64,000 nt of DNA from Bacteroidota bacterium. GTDB lineage: Bacteria; Bacteroidota; Bacteroidia; Flavobacteriales; Flavobacteriaceae. The notes below the pieces were generated by a model. That model was not told the origin of the DNA, searched no databases, and saw nothing but the letters and a program-made list of their open reading frames with translations. The position numbers and the translations under genes were made by a program. Below are positions 16,077 through 23,578 of the stretch, piece after piece. The stretch's first letter is position 1; each line of letters begins with the position of its first letter. The stretch is taken from NCBI GenBank assembly GCA_018267095.1, contig JAFDZC010000005.1:1-64000 (forward strand), read 5' to 3'.

Positions 16077-16526
16077 TTACTGACAATCTTCAATCAGATA
16101 TTGTGTTTTGTTGATTTCAAATGAAAATCCAATAGTTTGTCCGAGCAGAGCTTGTCCGAGTGGCGACTGCAGCGAAACGGCAATTACTGTTTTTTCATCA
16201 ACAATAATTTTAGGAAGCGCCGCAGATAAAAACAGCCACATTTTATTGGCTTGAACCAAACTCCCCAACGTAATTCGGTCAGAGGAAAATTCTGGGTTTA
16301 TTTTGTCTAGAAGTGCCTTTTGAGTGATGTATTCCGCCAGTTTTGCATTGAGTTTTTCTTGCTCAAGTTGCATCATCGACAAGGCGGTTTCATGTTTGTC
16401 TCCGGCTGAACTTTTTGCATCGTTTTGTGCATCGAGTGCCAATTCGGCTATTCGGTCGCGAAACACGTCAATTTTGTCTTGAATCAGTTGTTGATGTTGT
16501 GTGAGAACCTTCTGTTTAAAAGTCAT
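16077..16526 (-). CDS. GreA/GreB-like C-terminal domain protein
   Basis: A 149-residue cytosolic protein with a helical, probably coiled-coil N-terminal half ('KIDVFRDRIAELALDAQNDA', 'LEQEKLNAKLAEYITQKALL', about 18-90) and a C-terminal beta domain ending 'VIAVSLQSPLGQALLGQTIGFSFEINKTQYLIEDC'-like. The Ser-Pro-Leu-Gly-(Q/K)-Ala-Leu-Leu-Gly pattern is the GreA/GreB C-terminal (FKBP-like) signature. It lacks the acidic tip sequence of true Gre factors, so anti-pausing activity is doubtful. Related proteins in Flavobacteria have at times been labelled '3-oxoacyl-ACP synthase', which the sequence does not support. It starts 17 nt after the barrel gene stop, so it likely ends the TPR-barrel operon. 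Its role is unknown. Confidence 0.75.
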   Translation of the reverse strand: MTFKQKVLTQHQQLIQDKIDVFRDRIAELALDAQNDAKSSAGDKHETALSMMQLEQEKLNAKLAEYITQKALLDKINPEFSSDRITLGSLVQANKMWLFLSAALPKIIVDEKTVIAVSLQSPLGQALLGQTIGFSFEINKTQYLIEDCQ

Positions 16527-16543
16527 AGCAGGCTACTGAAGGA

Positions 16544-18295
16544 TCAAAAATCAAACTTATAATTCGCGCCTAATAAAATCTGAAATGATTGCACCGGATA
16601 ATTGAGCCATTTTTGATAAGCTTGATTTCCGAGGTTGTTCAAACGCAAAAAAGCAGTCAAGCGATCGCTGTATTTGTATCCTACATGAGCGTTGGCGTCA
16701 AAGTATGCTTTAACCGTTTTCACATTGTCAGTTGCGACAATCGGCAGCACATCTAAATTGGTTTGACGATCTTTGCGATCCCCTACAAAAAACACTTTAG
16801 TTCCAGCATACCATTTCTGAGTAATATTCACATCAAGATTGGCAGCAAGCTCAATTTGTGGTAAGTTCCAAGGTTCAGCCTCATAATCCATGGTGTATTG
16901 ATTAAAAGTTCCGTTGACACCGAATGAAATGTTTTTGGTAAAATCAGCTCTGAGTTCGCCAAACAACCGTAAAGTGCGCACTAAATCATAGGTTACTCCA
17001 AATGAGTTTCCGTATTGATACATTTCTTTAATCACCGGAATATCGTGAAAATCATTGGCTACAAAAAGCGGTTTGTTTTTCTCATTGAGCAAAGCGCCTT
17101 TGACGTTATAACTGATGTTACTGGCCAGTTTACCTTTGAGTCCGGCATAAACTTCATATTGGCGATCGGTCGGAGCTACAATCAAGGTTGGAGAAACATA
17201 GAGATTTTCGTTGGCAAAATTGCGGTAAGAATTCTGCTCCAATCCACCGTCAATTCCAGTGTAGAACATCATGTATTGATCGACAATTTTGAGCGTGGCA
17301 TTGGCCCGCGGATAAAAGAAAAGTTCACTGTCGCTGTGTTCGCTGTCGATTCCGTAAACCAAAGCCGCTCCGATGCTGAATGACCAAGCGTCTTTTTTCA
17401 TACCGAAACTCGGGTAAACACCAATGTTGGTATACGAATACTTAAAACCATCAGCTCCGCTGTAATCTTGATTAAATGAACCCGAAAGATGATCTACGGA
17501 AAATTCAGTAGTCACATGTTTGTTGAGCATATCAAAGTTCAAAGTCGGCTTCAAAACAAAACGATTCTCGGCAGATTTGAAGGCATCCCAAAAACGATTG
17601 TATTTCAAATCAACACCATTAAAAATACTTTCTTTGAATTTGAGTTTTCCGCCTAATGAAAAATTGTTGTACGACTGCATTTGGTCAATATTCCCTATGG
17701 CTTGATTAATTTCAGCCGGTGTTAAAGCTTGTCCGAATTCATCCGGTAAGCCATACCAATATTGACGTTGCATCTGATAACCCAAATCGGCATTCCAAGA
17801 GTAGTTTTTTTGACGACTTCCGTAGGTCAAATCGAGTGCAGTATTTGAAAACTTGCTGTCGAGTTTTGATTCTTTAATATCCGAAAATGACGATAAATGT
17901 TTGAACATTCCCGCGGCGTAATCAGTATCGTTGATGTCATGGGTCACGTATAATTCACCTAAAACATTCAAAAAACTACCCACACCACCAGTCACATAAT
18001 TGCGATACAATCGCTGTTTTTGTTCTTGATCCACATTGGCAGCTTTTCCTTTAGAAGGTACAAAAGTCGAAGCCACCGGAAAAGAATAAATCGAATATGT
18101 TATGGTTTCTTTCTTGGTATTGTCTTCGTCCTCGAGCGGCGGGTTTTCTTTTACTTTAAAAGCATCTGAAATAGTTGGCGTATATGGTTTGACCACATTG
18201 ACCACTTCGGTTCCGATGTTCTCGTCTTTTTTCTGGGCCGACAACTGATTGACCACAAACAAAGTCAGTAAGATATGTTGAATCTTGATTTTCAT
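16544..18295 (-). CDS. Outer-membrane beta-barrel protein, TonB-receptor-like without plug
   Basis: A 583-residue protein starting at the ATG 18295 with a signal peptide ('KIQHILLTLFVVNQLSAQK'). Mature residues about 25-60 hold 'TEVVNVVKPYTPTISDAFKV', then a long series of alternating amphipathic strands rich in Tyr, Phe and Asn with many 'Y..(N/G).F' turns. It ends 'QILLGANYKFDF', a terminal-Phe beta signal for BAM insertion. Late strands ('KYSDRLTAFLRLNNLGNQAYQKWLNYPVQ') resemble the end of TonB-dependent receptors ('N(L/I)..(K/Q)...'), but I find no TonB box or plug domain. It follows the TPR gene by 86 nt and probably shares its mRNA. It may form an outer-membrane complex with it; cargo and ligand are unknown. 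Confidence 0.75.
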   Translation of the reverse strand: MKIKIQHILLTLFVVNQLSAQKKDENIGTEVVNVVKPYTPTISDAFKVKENPPLEDEDNTKKETITYSIYSFPVASTFVPSKGKAANVDQEQKQRLYRNYVTGGVGSFLNVLGELYVTHDINDTDYAAGMFKHLSSFSDIKESKLDSKFSNTALDLTYGSRQKNYSWNADLGYQMQRQYWYGLPDEFGQALTPAEINQAIGNIDQMQSYNNFSLGGKLKFKESIFNGVDLKYNRFWDAFKSAENRFVLKPTLNFDMLNKHVTTEFSVDHLSGSFNQDYSGADGFKYSYTNIGVYPSFGMKKDAWSFSIGAALVYGIDSEHSDSELFFYPRANATLKIVDQYMMFYTGIDGGLEQNSYRNFANENLYVSPTLIVAPTDRQYEVYAGLKGKLASNISYNVKGALLNEKNKPLFVANDFHDIPVIKEMYQYGNSFGVTYDLVRTLRLFGELRADFTKNISFGVNGTFNQYTMDYEAEPWNLPQIELAANLDVNITQKWYAGTKVFFVGDRKDRQTNLDVLPIVATDNVKTVKAYFDANAHVGYKYSDRLTAFLRLNNLGNQAYQKWLNYPVQSFQILLGANYKFDF

Positions 18296-18381
18296 AATTT
18301 TTATTTTAGTTGCTGAGCGGCTGGGCAAACAAGCTTCTGAGTTTCATTTCAGGTACTCAGTAACGCTTCAACTTAGTAGCT

Positions 18382-21300
18382 TTAGTTTTGAATAGATGAA
18401 TTGGTTTGTGCCTCTTGGGCTTTAATGGTTGAAAGTTCGGTTTGTGCTTCGGCAACAATTTCCGAGAAAGCCGTAAAATTCTTGATTACGCTGTCTAATA
18501 TATAGGTAGCTTGAAAACTGTCTTTGAGGCCGTAAAAATTCTTGGCCATCACAATCAAACCTTTGGCTCCAAAATATTTATATCCCGAATAATCTTTTGA
18601 AAGCTTTTGAACCGCGGTGTTAGAAGCTTCAAACTTGCCGTCTTTGTTCTTGAAATAAGCGTCGTAATACAAAGCTTCAGCGGCCAATTCACCACGGGCA
18701 ATAGTTTGTAATTTGGCATAAGCAGCACGCGCTTTCACTTCATCACCGGTCTGAATCGCCGCACGCGCCACAATGATTTGGGCATCTGATTTTACCTTGT
18801 TATCGGTTTTAGGATTGGCCATTACTTTTTCGGCATAAATTACCGCATTCGAAAAATCCTTGGTTTCATAATAAGTTTTCATCAAATTAGATTGCGCAAA
18901 AGTGATGTTCTGCGGAAAATCAGCTTCAGATTCTAAACGTTTTAGCGTGCTGATTGTTTTTTCAGAGTTGTCCTTTTTAAGATAAATTTCAGCCAAACGC
19001 GCGAGCGATGGTTCGGTAAATTCGTTGCGCGGTTTACCTACAACATATTCGTAATGTGACACTGATTTATCGGGATTTCCATCGGCAAAATACGATTGCG
19101 CCAAATAGAAATTCGTTTTGAGCGCATGCACTCCATTCGGGAATTTCGACACATATCCGCTCAAATTCGAAATCGCTTGTTTGGTATTGTTTTGCAGATA
19201 TTGTTTTTCGGCTGCTTCAAAAGTATCGTTGTCGAGTTCGGCATCGGTCACCGCAACAAAATCCAAAGTTTTAACCCAACTGGCGTATTCGTCGATTTTG
19301 CCGTTGTCGAGGTAAATCAAACGAGCCGTCGCCACAGCTTCAACTGCTTCAGGGCTTTTTGGATATTCAGCGGCTAGTTTTTTGAATTTTGTTAATGCTT
19401 GCCCATCATTCTCGGCATTGTAATATACCAAGCCTTGACGCAAAATGGCTTTAGAAGCGTAGTTTCCGGTTTTAGATTCGGCCAACAATTGGTCGTAAGT
19501 TCTGATGGCTTCGTCGTTTTTCTTCTCGGTTACATAAGTGTTTCCGAGTTCAAACATGGCATCGTCGCGGTATTGCGATTTTGGGTAATTGGCAATTACT
19601 TTTTTAAGATCTTCAATCTTTTTGTCATTGCGCGCTACAAATCCGTAGCTGATGGCTTTTTGAAAAGCAGCGTAATCCGCATCGACACTTTTGAGCTCGA
19701 CCACTTTGTTATAGGCTTCCATCGCCGGCCAGTATTTAGCCATGACAAATCGGCAATCAGCCAAACGCAAATAAGCATCGTTCAAGCGAACTTTATCGTC
19801 TTTAGCTCGGTCAACATACAACTGAAATTCGTTTCCGGCCTCGTCGTATTGTTTGAGTTTGAAATACGCATAAGCCATGTTGTAATTAATATTCTTGAAC
19901 TCCGGTGTGTCTTTGGCTTCGGCATATCCTACAAACTGTTTGAAGCTTGCCAGCGATTCTGAAAAATTATCCAAACCATATTCGGTTTCGCCTTTCCAAA
20001 ACGAAGCGCGCGCCGAGAAACGGGCATCAACCGGTTGCGCCAACGATTTTTTAAACATCGCCAAAGCTTCGGTGTAATTGCCATCGGTGTATAATTCTAA
20101 GCCGCGATACAACGTAACTTTTTGATAAGCCGATTTGTTTTGGGCTGAAGTTTTGTTTTTCTCGAGCAAATCGAGCGCACCTTTGTAGTTTTTTGAAGTG
20201 ATGTACGAATTAATCAGCAAAGTTTCGATTTCATTTTTGCTCGGTGAATTCGGATATTTTTGAATAAACGCAAACAAAACATCCGGAACCGGTTGGTATG
20301 AATTACCGATTTCGTAACTGATTTTGGCGTAATTCAAATGCGCGTCTTCTTGAATTTTCAAATCAAAATTCATCTCGGAAGCGTTTTTAAAAGCATTGAG
20401 TGCTTGTTGCTTTTTGTTGGTTTTGAAATAGCTTTCACCCAAGTGATAATAAGCATTTTGCGCTACAGCATCTTTTCCGTCGATGATTTTATTGAACTGG
20501 GCAATGGCGTTTTCGTAATCGCCTTTTTGGTAATACACATAACCGAGTTGGTAAAAATCGGTATTGCTCCACTTGCCTTTTTTGCCTTTGTATTCGTTCA
20601 AATACGGCAAGGCTTTGTTGAAATCTTTGAGGTTGAAATAACTTTCACCGATGATTTTATTGAGTTCTGATTTTTCTTGCGCGTTAGATTTAGGCAAAGC
20701 TTTTACGCCGAGTTCAATGGCTTTTTGAAAATTGCCCGATTTAAAAGCCATATCTGCTTTAAAATAGGAGAGTTTTTCTTCGTATTTTTCTTCACCTTCA
20801 ACAGCTTCAAAATATTTGGATGCTTCTTTGTAATCATTGCCTTCATAGGCCATAAAGCCCAAATAATACTTGGCTTGCGATCCATAATCGCGTGAATTGA
20901 TTACTTTGTTGAAAAAACCAGAAGCTTCTTTTTTCTTTCCGGCGCTAAACAAACAATAGCCTTTTTGAAAGTAAAAGCGGTCTTGATCTTCATAATCCAA
21001 GGTGTTTTCATTGACTTTTTCTGACCATTCGAGCGCTTGAGGAAATTTACCTTGATTAAAATAGTAACGCGAAACGCCTAAATAAGCCTCGTTTTGTTTG
21101 GGACTTGTCGGATAATCGCGTACAAAACGTTCGATTTGTTCATCTGCATCGGGTTGCTCTAGATGGATTCCGCAATTGGCGCTGTAAAAAGCACAATCGG
21201 CTAGAATTTCGGCATCTTTGGATTCTGATTTTACGCGATCAAAAATAATTTGGGCAGACTGATATTGTGCCGCTTTGTACAAAGCTACCGCGCGATCAAA

Positions 21301-21402
21301 ATCTTCTGAAGGATAAGTATAAATAGCCGATTTTTGAGCTGAAACCGAACCGATTCCCATCCATAATAAACCGATAAATAAAAGGGATTTTTTGCGCATC
21401 AT
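18382..21402 (-). CDS. Large periplasmic tetratricopeptide-repeat protein
   Basis: A 1006-residue protein with a clear signal peptide (about 1-22, ending 'GIGSVSAQ'). The rest is built almost wholly of TPR-like helical pairs, for example 'YYLGFMAYEGNDYKEASKYF' (about 180-199), 'YYHLGESYFKTNKKQQALNAF' (about 315-335) and 'AMFELGNTYVTEKKNDEAIRTY' (about 620-641). I count at least twelve units. No enzyme motif, lipobox or membrane segment is visible past the signal, so the protein is probably periplasmic. Homologues in Flavobacteria are annotated only as TPR proteins. It is the first gene of a set with the barrel protein and the GreA-like protein. A scaffold role in outer-membrane assembly is inference. 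Confidence 0.85.
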   Translation of the reverse strand: MMRKKSLLFIGLLWMGIGSVSAQKSAIYTYPSEDFDRAVALYKAAQYQSAQIIFDRVKSESKDAEILADCAFYSANCGIHLEQPDADEQIERFVRDYPTSPKQNEAYLGVSRYYFNQGKFPQALEWSEKVNENTLDYEDQDRFYFQKGYCLFSAGKKKEASGFFNKVINSRDYGSQAKYYLGFMAYEGNDYKEASKYFEAVEGEEKYEEKLSYFKADMAFKSGNFQKAIELGVKALPKSNAQEKSELNKIIGESYFNLKDFNKALPYLNEYKGKKGKWSNTDFYQLGYVYYQKGDYENAIAQFNKIIDGKDAVAQNAYYHLGESYFKTNKKQQALNAFKNASEMNFDLKIQEDAHLNYAKISYEIGNSYQPVPDVLFAFIQKYPNSPSKNEIETLLINSYITSKNYKGALDLLEKNKTSAQNKSAYQKVTLYRGLELYTDGNYTEALAMFKKSLAQPVDARFSARASFWKGETEYGLDNFSESLASFKQFVGYAEAKDTPEFKNINYNMAYAYFKLKQYDEAGNEFQLYVDRAKDDKVRLNDAYLRLADCRFVMAKYWPAMEAYNKVVELKSVDADYAAFQKAISYGFVARNDKKIEDLKKVIANYPKSQYRDDAMFELGNTYVTEKKNDEAIRTYDQLLAESKTGNYASKAILRQGLVYYNAENDGQALTKFKKLAAEYPKSPEAVEAVATARLIYLDNGKIDEYASWVKTLDFVAVTDAELDNDTFEAAEKQYLQNNTKQAISNLSGYVSKFPNGVHALKTNFYLAQSYFADGNPDKSVSHYEYVVGKPRNEFTEPSLARLAEIYLKKDNSEKTISTLKRLESEADFPQNITFAQSNLMKTYYETKDFSNAVIYAEKVMANPKTDNKVKSDAQIIVARAAIQTGDEVKARAAYAKLQTIARGELAAEALYYDAYFKNKDGKFEASNTAVQKLSKDYSGYKYFGAKGLIVMAKNFYGLKDSFQATYILDSVIKNFTAFSEIVAEAQTELSTIKAQEAQTNSSIQN

Positions 21403-21570: not shown

Positions 21571-22725
21571 GTGAAAAAAGAAATCTCCATTGTGATGCCT
21601 TGCCTCAACGAAGCCGAAACTTTGGCCGTTTGCATTGAAAAAGCACGCGGTTTTCTGGATAAAAATCAAATTCAAGGCGAAATCATCGTTGCCGACAACG
21701 GCAGTCAAGACGGTTCGCAGAGCATAGCTGTCAACAGTGGAGCCATTCTGACTGAAGCTTCAAAAAAAGGATACGGTGAAGCGCTCAAAGTCGGATTCGA
21801 AAAAGCTTCGGGACAATATATCATCATGGGTGATGCTGATAATAGTTATGATTTTAGCGCCTTAGACGAGTTTGTTCAAAAAATGCGCTCGGGTAATGAT
21901 TTGGTCATTGGCAACCGATTCAAAGGCGGTATTCAAAAAAATGCCATGCCTTTTTTGCATCAATATGTTGGCAATCCGGTTTTGTCATTTTTGGGAAGGC
22001 TTTTTTTTAAATCAACCATCGGTGATTTTCATTGTGGACTCAGAGCCATTTCTGCCGAAGCATATCAAAAATTGAATTTGAATACTTCAGGCATGGAATT
22101 CGCCTCTGAGATGATTGTTAAAGCGCATTTGATAAACCTCAAAATCACTGAAGTTCCAACGATTCTTTATCCCGATGGTCGCAGCCGAAAACCCCATCTA
22201 AAAACCTGGAGCGACGGTTGGCGACATTTGCGTTTTTTGCTGTTGTATAGTCCGAATTGGTTGTTTTTATTTCCGGGTGTATTGCTCATAAGCATTGGTT
22301 TGGGGCTTTCTGTTGCATTGTTGTTTGGGCCGATACATTTGTCCAAAATCACTTTTGATATACACACCCTTTTGTATGCGTGCGCTTTTGTAATTAGCGG
22401 ATTTCAGTTTGTACTGTTTTACGGACTTACAAAAGTTTTTGCCGTAACTCAGGGCTTGCTTTTGAAAAGCCAACGATACACTTCTTTTTTTAAAATAATC
22501 AACCTTGAACGCGGATTAATTTTAGGTTTTTTGATGACCAGCTTAGGCATTGGTTTGAGTGTTTATGGGTTTTCAATTTGGTCTGCAAAGGGCTTCGGCA
22601 ACTTAGAATCAAGCCAAACGCTGCGCATCGTTATTCCGGCTGTAACCATCAGTATACTGGGGCTTCAAACTGTATTATTCAGCTTTTTCTTTAGTATTTT
22701 GGGGTTAAAAGATAACCCTCGATGA
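21571..22725 (+). CDS. Family 2 glycosyltransferase with C-terminal membrane segments
   Basis: A 384-residue GtrB/dolichyl-phosphate-mannose-synthase-like enzyme that would transfer sugar from a nucleotide donor to a polyprenyl-phosphate carrier on the inner membrane. It starts with GTG at 21571. The GT-A domain shows 'IVMPCLNEAETL' (about 6-17), 'VADNGSQDGSQSIA' (about 40-53), the metal site 'MGDADNSYDF' (about 90-99), 'IGNRFKGG' (about 115-122) and 'FHCGLRAI' (about 153-160). About four hydrophobic segments follow residue 225. This layout, GT-A plus 2-4 membrane spans, is usual for lipid-linked sugar donors. Donor sugar is not predictable. It opens the glycosyltransferase cluster. Confidence 0.9.
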   Translation: MKKEISIVMPCLNEAETLAVCIEKARGFLDKNQIQGEIIVADNGSQDGSQSIAVNSGAILTEASKKGYGEALKVGFEKASGQYIIMGDADNSYDFSALDEFVQKMRSGNDLVIGNRFKGGIQKNAMPFLHQYVGNPVLSFLGRLFFKSTIGDFHCGLRAISAEAYQKLNLNTSGMEFASEMIVKAHLINLKITEVPTILYPDGRSRKPHLKTWSDGWRHLRFLLLYSPNWLFLFPGVLLISIGLGLSVALLFGPIHLSKITFDIHTLLYACAFVISGFQFVLFYGLTKVFAVTQGLLLKSQRYTSFFKIINLERGLILGFLMTSLGIGLSVYGFSIWSAKGFGNLESSQTLRIVIPAVTISILGLQTVLFSFFFSILGLKDNPR

Positions 22726-22894: not shown

Positions 22895-23578
22895 ATGTCA
22901 ACTCCAGTTTTATCGCTAAAAAACGTCAACATCTATCAAACCGGAAAGGTTATTCTTTCAAATGTCAACCTCGAAATCGAGCAAGGTGAATTTTTATACA
23001 TCATCGGAAAAACCGGTACCGGAAAAAGTAGTCTGATGCGTACTTTATATGCTGATTTACCTTTAGCTGAGGGCCAAGGAAGTGTTGTAGGCTTTGATTT
23101 AGCAACCCTGAAAGACGATCAAATTCCATTTTTAAGAAGAAAACTCGGAATCGTTTTTCAAGATTTTAGATTGCTTCCCGACAGAACAGTCAAAGAGAAT
23201 ATGCTTTTTGTGCTCAAAGCTACCGGTTGGAACAACGCCCAAGAAATGCAAGCCAAAATTGACGAAGTACTCGAAAAAGTTGACTTGCGTGCCGTGGCCG
23301 AAAAAATGCCACATCAACTCTCCGGTGGTGAACAACAACGCGTAGGTATTGCGCGCGCACTACTGAATGATCCGGATTTGATTTTGGCCGATGAACCTAC
23401 CGGAAATCTAGATCCGCAAACCAGTGTCGAGGTGATGGAAGTGCTCCGAAAAATTAATGCCAACGGAAAAACCATCATCATGGCCACCCATGACTATGCC
23501 CTTTTGTTAAAATATCCTTCAAAAACACTCAAATGCGAAGACAATCAAGTGTTTGAAGTGATTCAACGATCGGTTTAA
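22895..23578 (+). CDS. ftsE: FtsE-like ABC transporter ATPase
   Basis: A 227-residue ATPase from the ATG at 22895; the in-frame extension upstream is a hydrophobic, unlikely N-terminus. Walker A is 'GKTGTGKSSLMRTL' (about 37-50), the Q-loop 'VFQDFRLLPDRTVKEN' (about 87-102), the ABC signature 'LSGGEQQRVGIARALL' (about 142-157) with Walker B 'LILADEPTGNLDP' (about 162-174) and the H-loop 'MATHDY'. The 'FQDFRLLPDRTV.EN' form is typical of FtsE, which pairs with FtsX to activate cell-wall hydrolases at the septum. No ftsX is adjacent: the neighbour, overlapping by 1 nt, is a glycosyltransferase. In Flavobacteria ftsX is usually elsewhere. A LolD/MacB-type ATPase is the alternative. Confidence 0.85.
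   Translation: MSTPVLSLKNVNIYQTGKVILSNVNLEIEQGEFLYIIGKTGTGKSSLMRTLYADLPLAEGQGSVVGFDLATLKDDQIPFLRRKLGIVFQDFRLLPDRTVKENMLFVLKATGWNNAQEMQAKIDEVLEKVDLRAVAEKMPHQLSGGEQQRVGIARALLNDPDLILADEPTGNLDPQTSVEVMEVLRKINANGKTIIMATHDYALLLKYPSKTLKCEDNQVFEVIQRSV

Follow-up and report, generated by a model that had tools for sequence, protein, structure and literature searches.

The window analysed in this study is a stretch of 64,000 nucleotides from a Bacteroidota bacterium of the family Flavobacteriaceae (GCA_018267095.1, contig JAFDZC010000005.1, positions 1 to 64,000), and it carries on the minus strand a gene for a 1006-residue tetratricopeptide repeat (TPR) protein (18382-21402) followed by a gene for a 583-residue barrel protein (16544-18295). 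This pair is a candidate outer-membrane division machine, because the two genes are paired across much of the phylum and stand beside a motor and a cell-wall-binding protein in several lineages. Our confidence is high that the module is real, widespread in Bacteroidota and, as far as the literature was searched, undescribed, and the module as such is well supported. Whether the pair forms the outer-membrane and periplasmic halves of a Tol-Pal-like trans-envelope machine driven by the proton motive force (PMF) is, in our judgment, evenly balanced, and a Tol-Pal-like role in division may be put at about even.

Conservation of the TPR-barrel pair

The original prediction had described three minus-strand genes in a row, the third (16077-16526) encoding a GreA/B-like protein, and had read the TPR and barrel proteins as an envelope unit with no described role. 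All three genes were confirmed. The start of the barrel gene was taken as the ATG at 18295 (the mechanical open reading frame (ORF) begins at TTG 18328), and the protein ends in a terminal Phe, as had been claimed.

Of 31 genomes searched with the barrel protein, the window's own among them, 27 had a match. The nearest relatives of the window barrel among named records belong to Flavobacterium (best 80 of 567 relatives in genome records); these 80 Flavobacterium-type loci, ten of them short, all have the TPR gene preceding the barrel gene, and they include one from Flavobacterium johnsoniae strain CI04 (L201). We then analyzed 75 further loci from other genera and families, 60 chosen by barrel matches across the phylum and 15 by TPR or barrel matches, with L299 excluded and L106 and L109, likely ordinary TonB-dependent transporters (TBDTs), kept in the denominator. 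In 68 of the 75 loci, one of the first three ORFs after the TPR gene on its strand was a barrel gene (61 assigned by profile, six by size and place, and L086 by separate evidence); conserved gene order across Bacteroidota had been proposed as a check, and these loci show it. Seven loci lacked an adjacent pair. Two were L106 and L109, which were rejected as pair barrels on their TBDT-like N-terminal sequence; the third, L068, has a barrel gene alone, with no TPR gene in its 13.7 kb (the genome beyond the locus was not searched); the remaining four keep the barrel gene together with genes resembling ExbB, ExbD and TonB, a SPOR-type match being present in three of the four, and their genomes carry the TPR gene on another contig.

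Independent distribution of the two genes, which had been named as evidence against a unit, was not what the genomes revealed. Among 30 genomes searched with both profiles, the TPR protein was present in all 11 that had a strong barrel match (E < 1e-20), as well as in three with weaker barrel matches (G023, G091, and G099). Five genomes (G033, G038, G079, G114, and G102) gave no match to the barrel profile, but in each the TPR gene is followed immediately by a gene of barrel size. No TPR protein was found in G021, a 76% complete genome whose barrel match (E 2.6e-4) falls in a 979-residue frame. Over the phylum, the barrel profile matched 213 of 296 genomes, a figure that does not count orthologues because many of the matches are weak and cover only C-terminal strands.

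The full-text literature searched holds no description of the pair, which agrees with the prediction of no described role, although this is weak evidence since the coverage omits most subscription papers and all preprints. The main texts of two papers on Bacteroidota outer-membrane biogenesis, concerning BAM (PMC12611786) and TamL (PMC12045153), contain no word starting with TPR or tetratricopeptide.

Domain content, fold and N-terminal tail

The 1006-residue protein matched many TPR models and has a signal-peptide-like start without a lipobox cysteine; the predicted periplasmic TPR protein was thereby upheld in its repeats, and its location is probably periplasmic. Full-length orthologues occur across much of Bacteroidota. 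The NCBIfam YbgF model TIGR02795 scored 169 bits against a cut-off of 90, but this score is summed over eight TPR stretches, and the CpoB model PRK10803 scored 28 bits against a cut-off of 383. Identity with PorW/SprE of the type IX secretion system was rejected (NF052312, 98.7 bits against a cut-off of 250; the signal sequence has no Cys close to its end). A TPR paralogue of 839 residues (L299, genome G032) has no barrel neighbour. A TPR-protein mutant of Riemerella is listed in the available part of PMC7881567, and no link between it and the window TPR gene could be made.

Searched against Pfam and NCBIfam, the barrel protein had no match up to E 1, nor, by phmmer, any among PDB sequences up to E 10. 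In the predicted model, residues 96-581 align on BtuB 135-594, giving the 22-strand barrel of a TBDT; the barrel domain itself spans residues 97-581 (16553-18007, minus strand). The structural alignment begins at BtuB 135 and FhuA 160, which we take to be the points where the barrel domains of these two proteins begin. The plug domain PF07715 was not matched, and residues 10-93 have a predicted local distance difference test score below 50. The modelled protein is therefore a TBDT fold without a plug, and the earlier claim of a plugless barrel was borne out. A comparison by description excluded the possibility that this protein is the Flavobacterium johnsoniae BamG, a FadL-type barrel of 14 strands as opposed to 22.

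The N-terminal tail (residues 22-93; 18017-18232, minus strand), unfolded in the model, is more strongly conserved than any other part of the protein. Across 53 sequences of the Flavobacterium type, 37 of the 71 positions in residues 22-92 were at least 98% identical; the barrel has 90 such positions among 491 (Fisher p 7e-9), and the 20-residue windows of the protein varying least start at residues 28 and 33. The conserved tail sequence is GTEVVNVVKPYTPTISDAFKVKE. It includes a TonB-box-like segment at residues 30-36 (18188-18208, minus strand), which reads EVVNVVK in the window and ETVTVTK in relatives, and a second conserved motif, YTPTISDAFKVK, at residues 38-49 (18149-18184, minus strand). 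At the same place in the tail, deep lineages carry LPEFIVTGKE, LPEVIVTGRE, or LPDFVITG; the LPEFIVTGKE of deep-branching orthologues is a textbook TonB box.

We scored 59 barrels with a matrix built from 21 TonB boxes of the window's genome, by using a threshold of p 0.05. The score was significant in nine barrels, eight of the 11 outside the window's class and one of the 48 inside it. The window tail was not significant (p 0.78), and we therefore call its segment box-like and unproven in this species. The earlier statement that the barrel has no TonB box consequently agrees with the matrix score of the window tail but overlooks both the box-like segment and the clear box of the lineages outside the class. 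The TonB box is clear in L113 and L118, where a TonB transducer is recognisable, and neither box nor transducer is recognisable in L086 and L079; these four cases suggest that the box and the transducer may have diverged together.

Motor, wall-binding and TolB patterns

In several families the gene order is TPR, barrel, HU/SPOR or SPOR, ExbB/TolQ, ExbD/TolR, and TonB-like, with folC nearby in nine loci. Over the 75 loci, genes near the pair were SPOR-type in 37, ExbB-like in 21, ExbD-like in 19, and TonB-like in 25. Representative loci matched the Pfam MotA_ExbB, ExbD, SPOR, HU-CCDC81, and TonB C-terminal domains, whereas the transducers of L086 and L079 had no Pfam match and the SPOR match of L086 fell below the cut-off. 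The probability of finding 21 ExbB-like neighbours in 75 loci by chance is below 1e-16 if each genome holds 2 to 6 ExbB genes, a rough estimate because the loci are not independent and supplied part of the material for the profiles.

The C-terminal domains of the two transducer groups align with each other (hhalign probability 97.3, one-to-one E 1.7e-11), and the first group weakly matches TonB C-terminal domains in the PDB (E about 2e-3). The PDB search with the transducer profile A5 lends weak support: its TonB matches lie in the C-terminal domain, but its equally strong TolA matches fall in a low-complexity linker and RBBP4 and kinesin chains are also listed.

The genome that holds the window has the module split. 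Away from the window's contig, a cluster (L129:5160-8565, contig C16) contains ExbB, ExbD, a 297-residue transducer (L129:7672-8565), and FolC, with the transducer gene on the strand opposite to exbB/exbD. The module ExbB profile scored 213 bits on this set compared with 118 bits on a second set (L130, ExbB-ExbD-ExbD-TonB), and a transducer profile built without the row of this genome matched only L129. The L129 ExbB scored 61 bits as TolQ and 33 bits as ExbB, both below the cut-off. The sole HU-CCDC81 protein of the genome has an HU-HU-SPOR arrangement, and its gene is one gene from an EnvC-like M23 gene; EnvC-like M23, thioesterase-like, and HU-CCDC81/SPOR genes lie together at L301:3440-6266 (contig C11). 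The predicted envelope unit of a TPR and a barrel protein is accordingly real as a pair, conserved in order in the loci described above, but incomplete, since elsewhere an ExbB-ExbD-TonB-like motor and a SPOR protein join it.

Tol-Pal loci are not identifiable in Bacteroidetes, where PorE has been proposed and other systems remain to be revealed, according to the available sections of Williams-Jones et al. (2025, PMC12204202). One family of the phylum, f28, carries these genes in the canonical arrangement tolQ-tolR-tolA-tolB-pal-pal-cpoB (L308). Chlorobi are reported to have tol-pal in a review (PMC7391070, in the part available), and f28 may be that group. We selected 58 genomes, comprising 20 of f28, 29 module genomes, and nine others, for comparing TolB with the TPR protein. 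With the f28 TolB as the query, 41 genomes had a match at E 1e-10, of which 20 were of full length, all in f28, and 21 covered only part of the propeller; full-length TolB was accordingly present in 20 of 20 f28 genomes and in none of the 38 others. For the module genomes the full-length count was 0 of 29, with partial propeller matches at most, the best at 5e-21, and in the genome of the window the query matched nothing. The TPR protein (E < 1e-50) was present in 29 of 29 module genomes, in none of the 20 from f28, and in none of the nine others. Within these 58 genomes it never occurred together with full-length TolB. A Pfam TolB_N search of 59 genomes was noisy, with seven matches: G044 and G053 in tol-pal clusters, G108 and G272 outside such clusters, and additionally G147, G267, and G114.

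Proposed mechanism, alternatives and neighbouring genes

On the basis of these findings, we propose tentatively, at somewhat less than even probability, that the module replaces Tol-Pal in Bacteroidota as a division-site machine, in which the plugless TonB-dependent barrel would serve as an anchor that receives force: a dedicated motor would pull it by its TonB-box tail, and the TPR protein would be a spacer. In such a machine, an ExbB/ExbD (TolQ/TolR-like) motor in the inner membrane would move a TonB/TolA-like transducer. At the outer membrane, the C-terminal domain of this transducer would bind the barrel's TonB-box-like tail through strand addition. The long TPR protein would bridge the periplasm as a spacer or an adaptor and might hold the second tail motif. 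The HU/SPOR inner-membrane protein would recruit the motor to the denuded peptidoglycan that arises at the septum under the control of FtsE/EnvC, and the machine would then pull on the outer membrane where the cell divides. We infer these protein contacts, the use of force, and the division role from the computed patterns.

The module belongs to the ExbBD/TolQR-driven trans-envelope machines, a known kind. It resembles Tol-Pal in its TolQ/ExbB-family motor, TonB/TolA-like transducer, TPR partner, wall-binding protein, and links to septal-wall processing, with motor genes of the TolQ/TolR type clustered with the pair in other families only and on another contig in the window's genome. Unlike Tol-Pal, it was found without TolB and has instead a 22-strand barrel embedded in the outer membrane; its TPR protein, at 1006 residues, is approximately four times the length of the L308 CpoB-like protein (256 residues), and a SPOR domain stands where Tol-Pal has the peptidoglycan-binding domain of Pal. 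With TBDTs served by ExbBD-TonB, the module shares the 22-strand fold, the TonB box of deep-branching members, and an ExbB/ExbD/TonB-like motor, but its barrel has no plug, its transducer is dedicated and diverged, and its partners are TPR and SPOR proteins. For the missing system that tethers the outer membrane in Bacteroidetes, PorE is likewise a candidate; however, it is a CpoB-TolB-Pal-like fusion lipoprotein, and the TPR-barrel pair is unmentioned in the available sections of its description (PMC12204202). The Agl-Glt system of Myxococcus, as described in the available part of PMC3169522, similarly has a large TPR protein (GltD, 1191 residues), a TolQ/TolR-like AglRQS motor, and a TonB-like GltG. 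By that description it is set apart, since it serves gliding motility and its outer-membrane candidates GltA, B, and H are of 209-275 residues, with no 22-strand TBDT barrel.

Several points weigh against the division machine. The evidence is wholly computational. ExbB- and ExbD-like genes were found near only a minority of the 75 loci, and the ExbB, ExbD, SPOR, and transducer profiles were built partly from the loci counted. In Flavobacterium the motor and SPOR genes are unlinked to the TPR-barrel pair, and a significant TonB box is largely confined to barrels outside the window's class. The links to SPOR, FtsE, and EnvC are guilt by association; FtsE is the best match to its protein but below the curated cut-off, as is the EnvC-like match, whose neighbourhood is known from one genome only. 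TPR content is uninformative by itself. The 29 module genomes were picked for the pair or, in four cases, for the barrel with the motor, and nine of the 58 genomes have neither full-length TolB nor the TPR protein (G031, G036, G041, G045 of family f23, G043, G108, G298, G027, and G028). The TolB/TPR pattern fits replacement but may reflect one evolutionary event in one family, f28.

The same domains could also build an energised exporter, a plugless 22-strand pore gated by the tail and fed through the TPR solenoid, in which the motor opens the gate and a polymer, lipid, or protein is exported or placed on the surface. A TPR protein with an outer-membrane barrel is an arrangement seen in the polysaccharide exporters AlgK-AlgE, BcsC, PgaA, and PelB; a plugless barrel of 22 strands would be wide, and the linkage of the motor to the pair suits this explanation. 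A UDP-sugar-dehydrogenase-like gene (cluster C12, identified by sequence) recurs a few genes downstream of the barrel gene in six loci of families f33 and f35 (L100, L103, L107, L111, L116, and L118), which fits an exporter and counts against the division machine. Nevertheless, no other recurring sugar-polymer gene was present among the larger neighbour clusters examined, and the SPOR linkage and the TolB pattern point toward the wall and division. We consider export unlikely.

A PMF-using machine for outer-membrane biogenesis or lipid homeostasis, such as an accessory of the TAM, BAM, or Lol type to which the division links would be secondary, appears less probable still. The wide distribution of the pair in the phylum is consistent with it, and unusual biogenesis machines are reported for Bacteroidota in the available parts of PMC12611786 and PMC12045153; however, the additional barrel of the F. 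johnsoniae BAM, BamG, is of the 14-strand FadL type in the former, rather than of 22 strands. Nutrient import by a degenerate TBDT for a common substrate, placed beside a TPR gene by chance, would account for the barrel fold and the TonB-box-like tail but is very improbable given the absent plug, the regular TPR partner, the SPOR-type gene near 37 of 75 loci, and the wide conservation.

As a widespread and unannotated set of genes that includes a motor and a wall-binding protein and has ftsE/envC-like genes nearby, the module is a concrete and testable candidate for coupling the outer membrane to division. If the division machine is the correct explanation, a TonB-dependent barrel would serve mechanics instead of transport.

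The Gre-like gene (minus strand, 149 residues) lies 17 nt behind the barrel gene, as had been predicted, but the likeness is weak: the protein scored 19.9 bits against PF01272, the GreA/GreB C-terminal domain (cut-off 26.9), over 23 C-terminal residues. This gene follows the barrel gene in 78 of the 80 Flavobacterium-type loci and is present in 32 loci of the genus, but occurred in 0 of 60 loci outside it (L060-L119); we therefore rejected it as a member of the system, and its earlier inclusion in the unit was not sustained. A PhzF-like gene separates the TPR gene from the barrel gene in 48 of these 80 loci, is absent from the window, and was taken as a genus-level insertion; a PhzF-family isomerase gene is likewise inserted in L131 (the copy tested), L133, and L134.

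Upstream of the TPR gene and on the other strand, ftsE is nearby in 77 of the 80 Flavobacterium-type loci. In the window, the gene for the FtsE-type ABC ATPase (22895-23578, plus strand) is one gene away from the TPR gene, separated by a gene that is glycosyltransferase-like by sequence (21571-22725), and we regard it as context of the TPR gene and not as a proven part of the module. Six f15 loci (L088, L089, L091, L095, L096, and L098) have a YbgC/FadM-type thioesterase gene (TIGR00051 in the two tested) on the opposite strand, upstream of the TPR gene; ybgC belongs to many tol-pal operons, as stated in the available part of PMC7391070.

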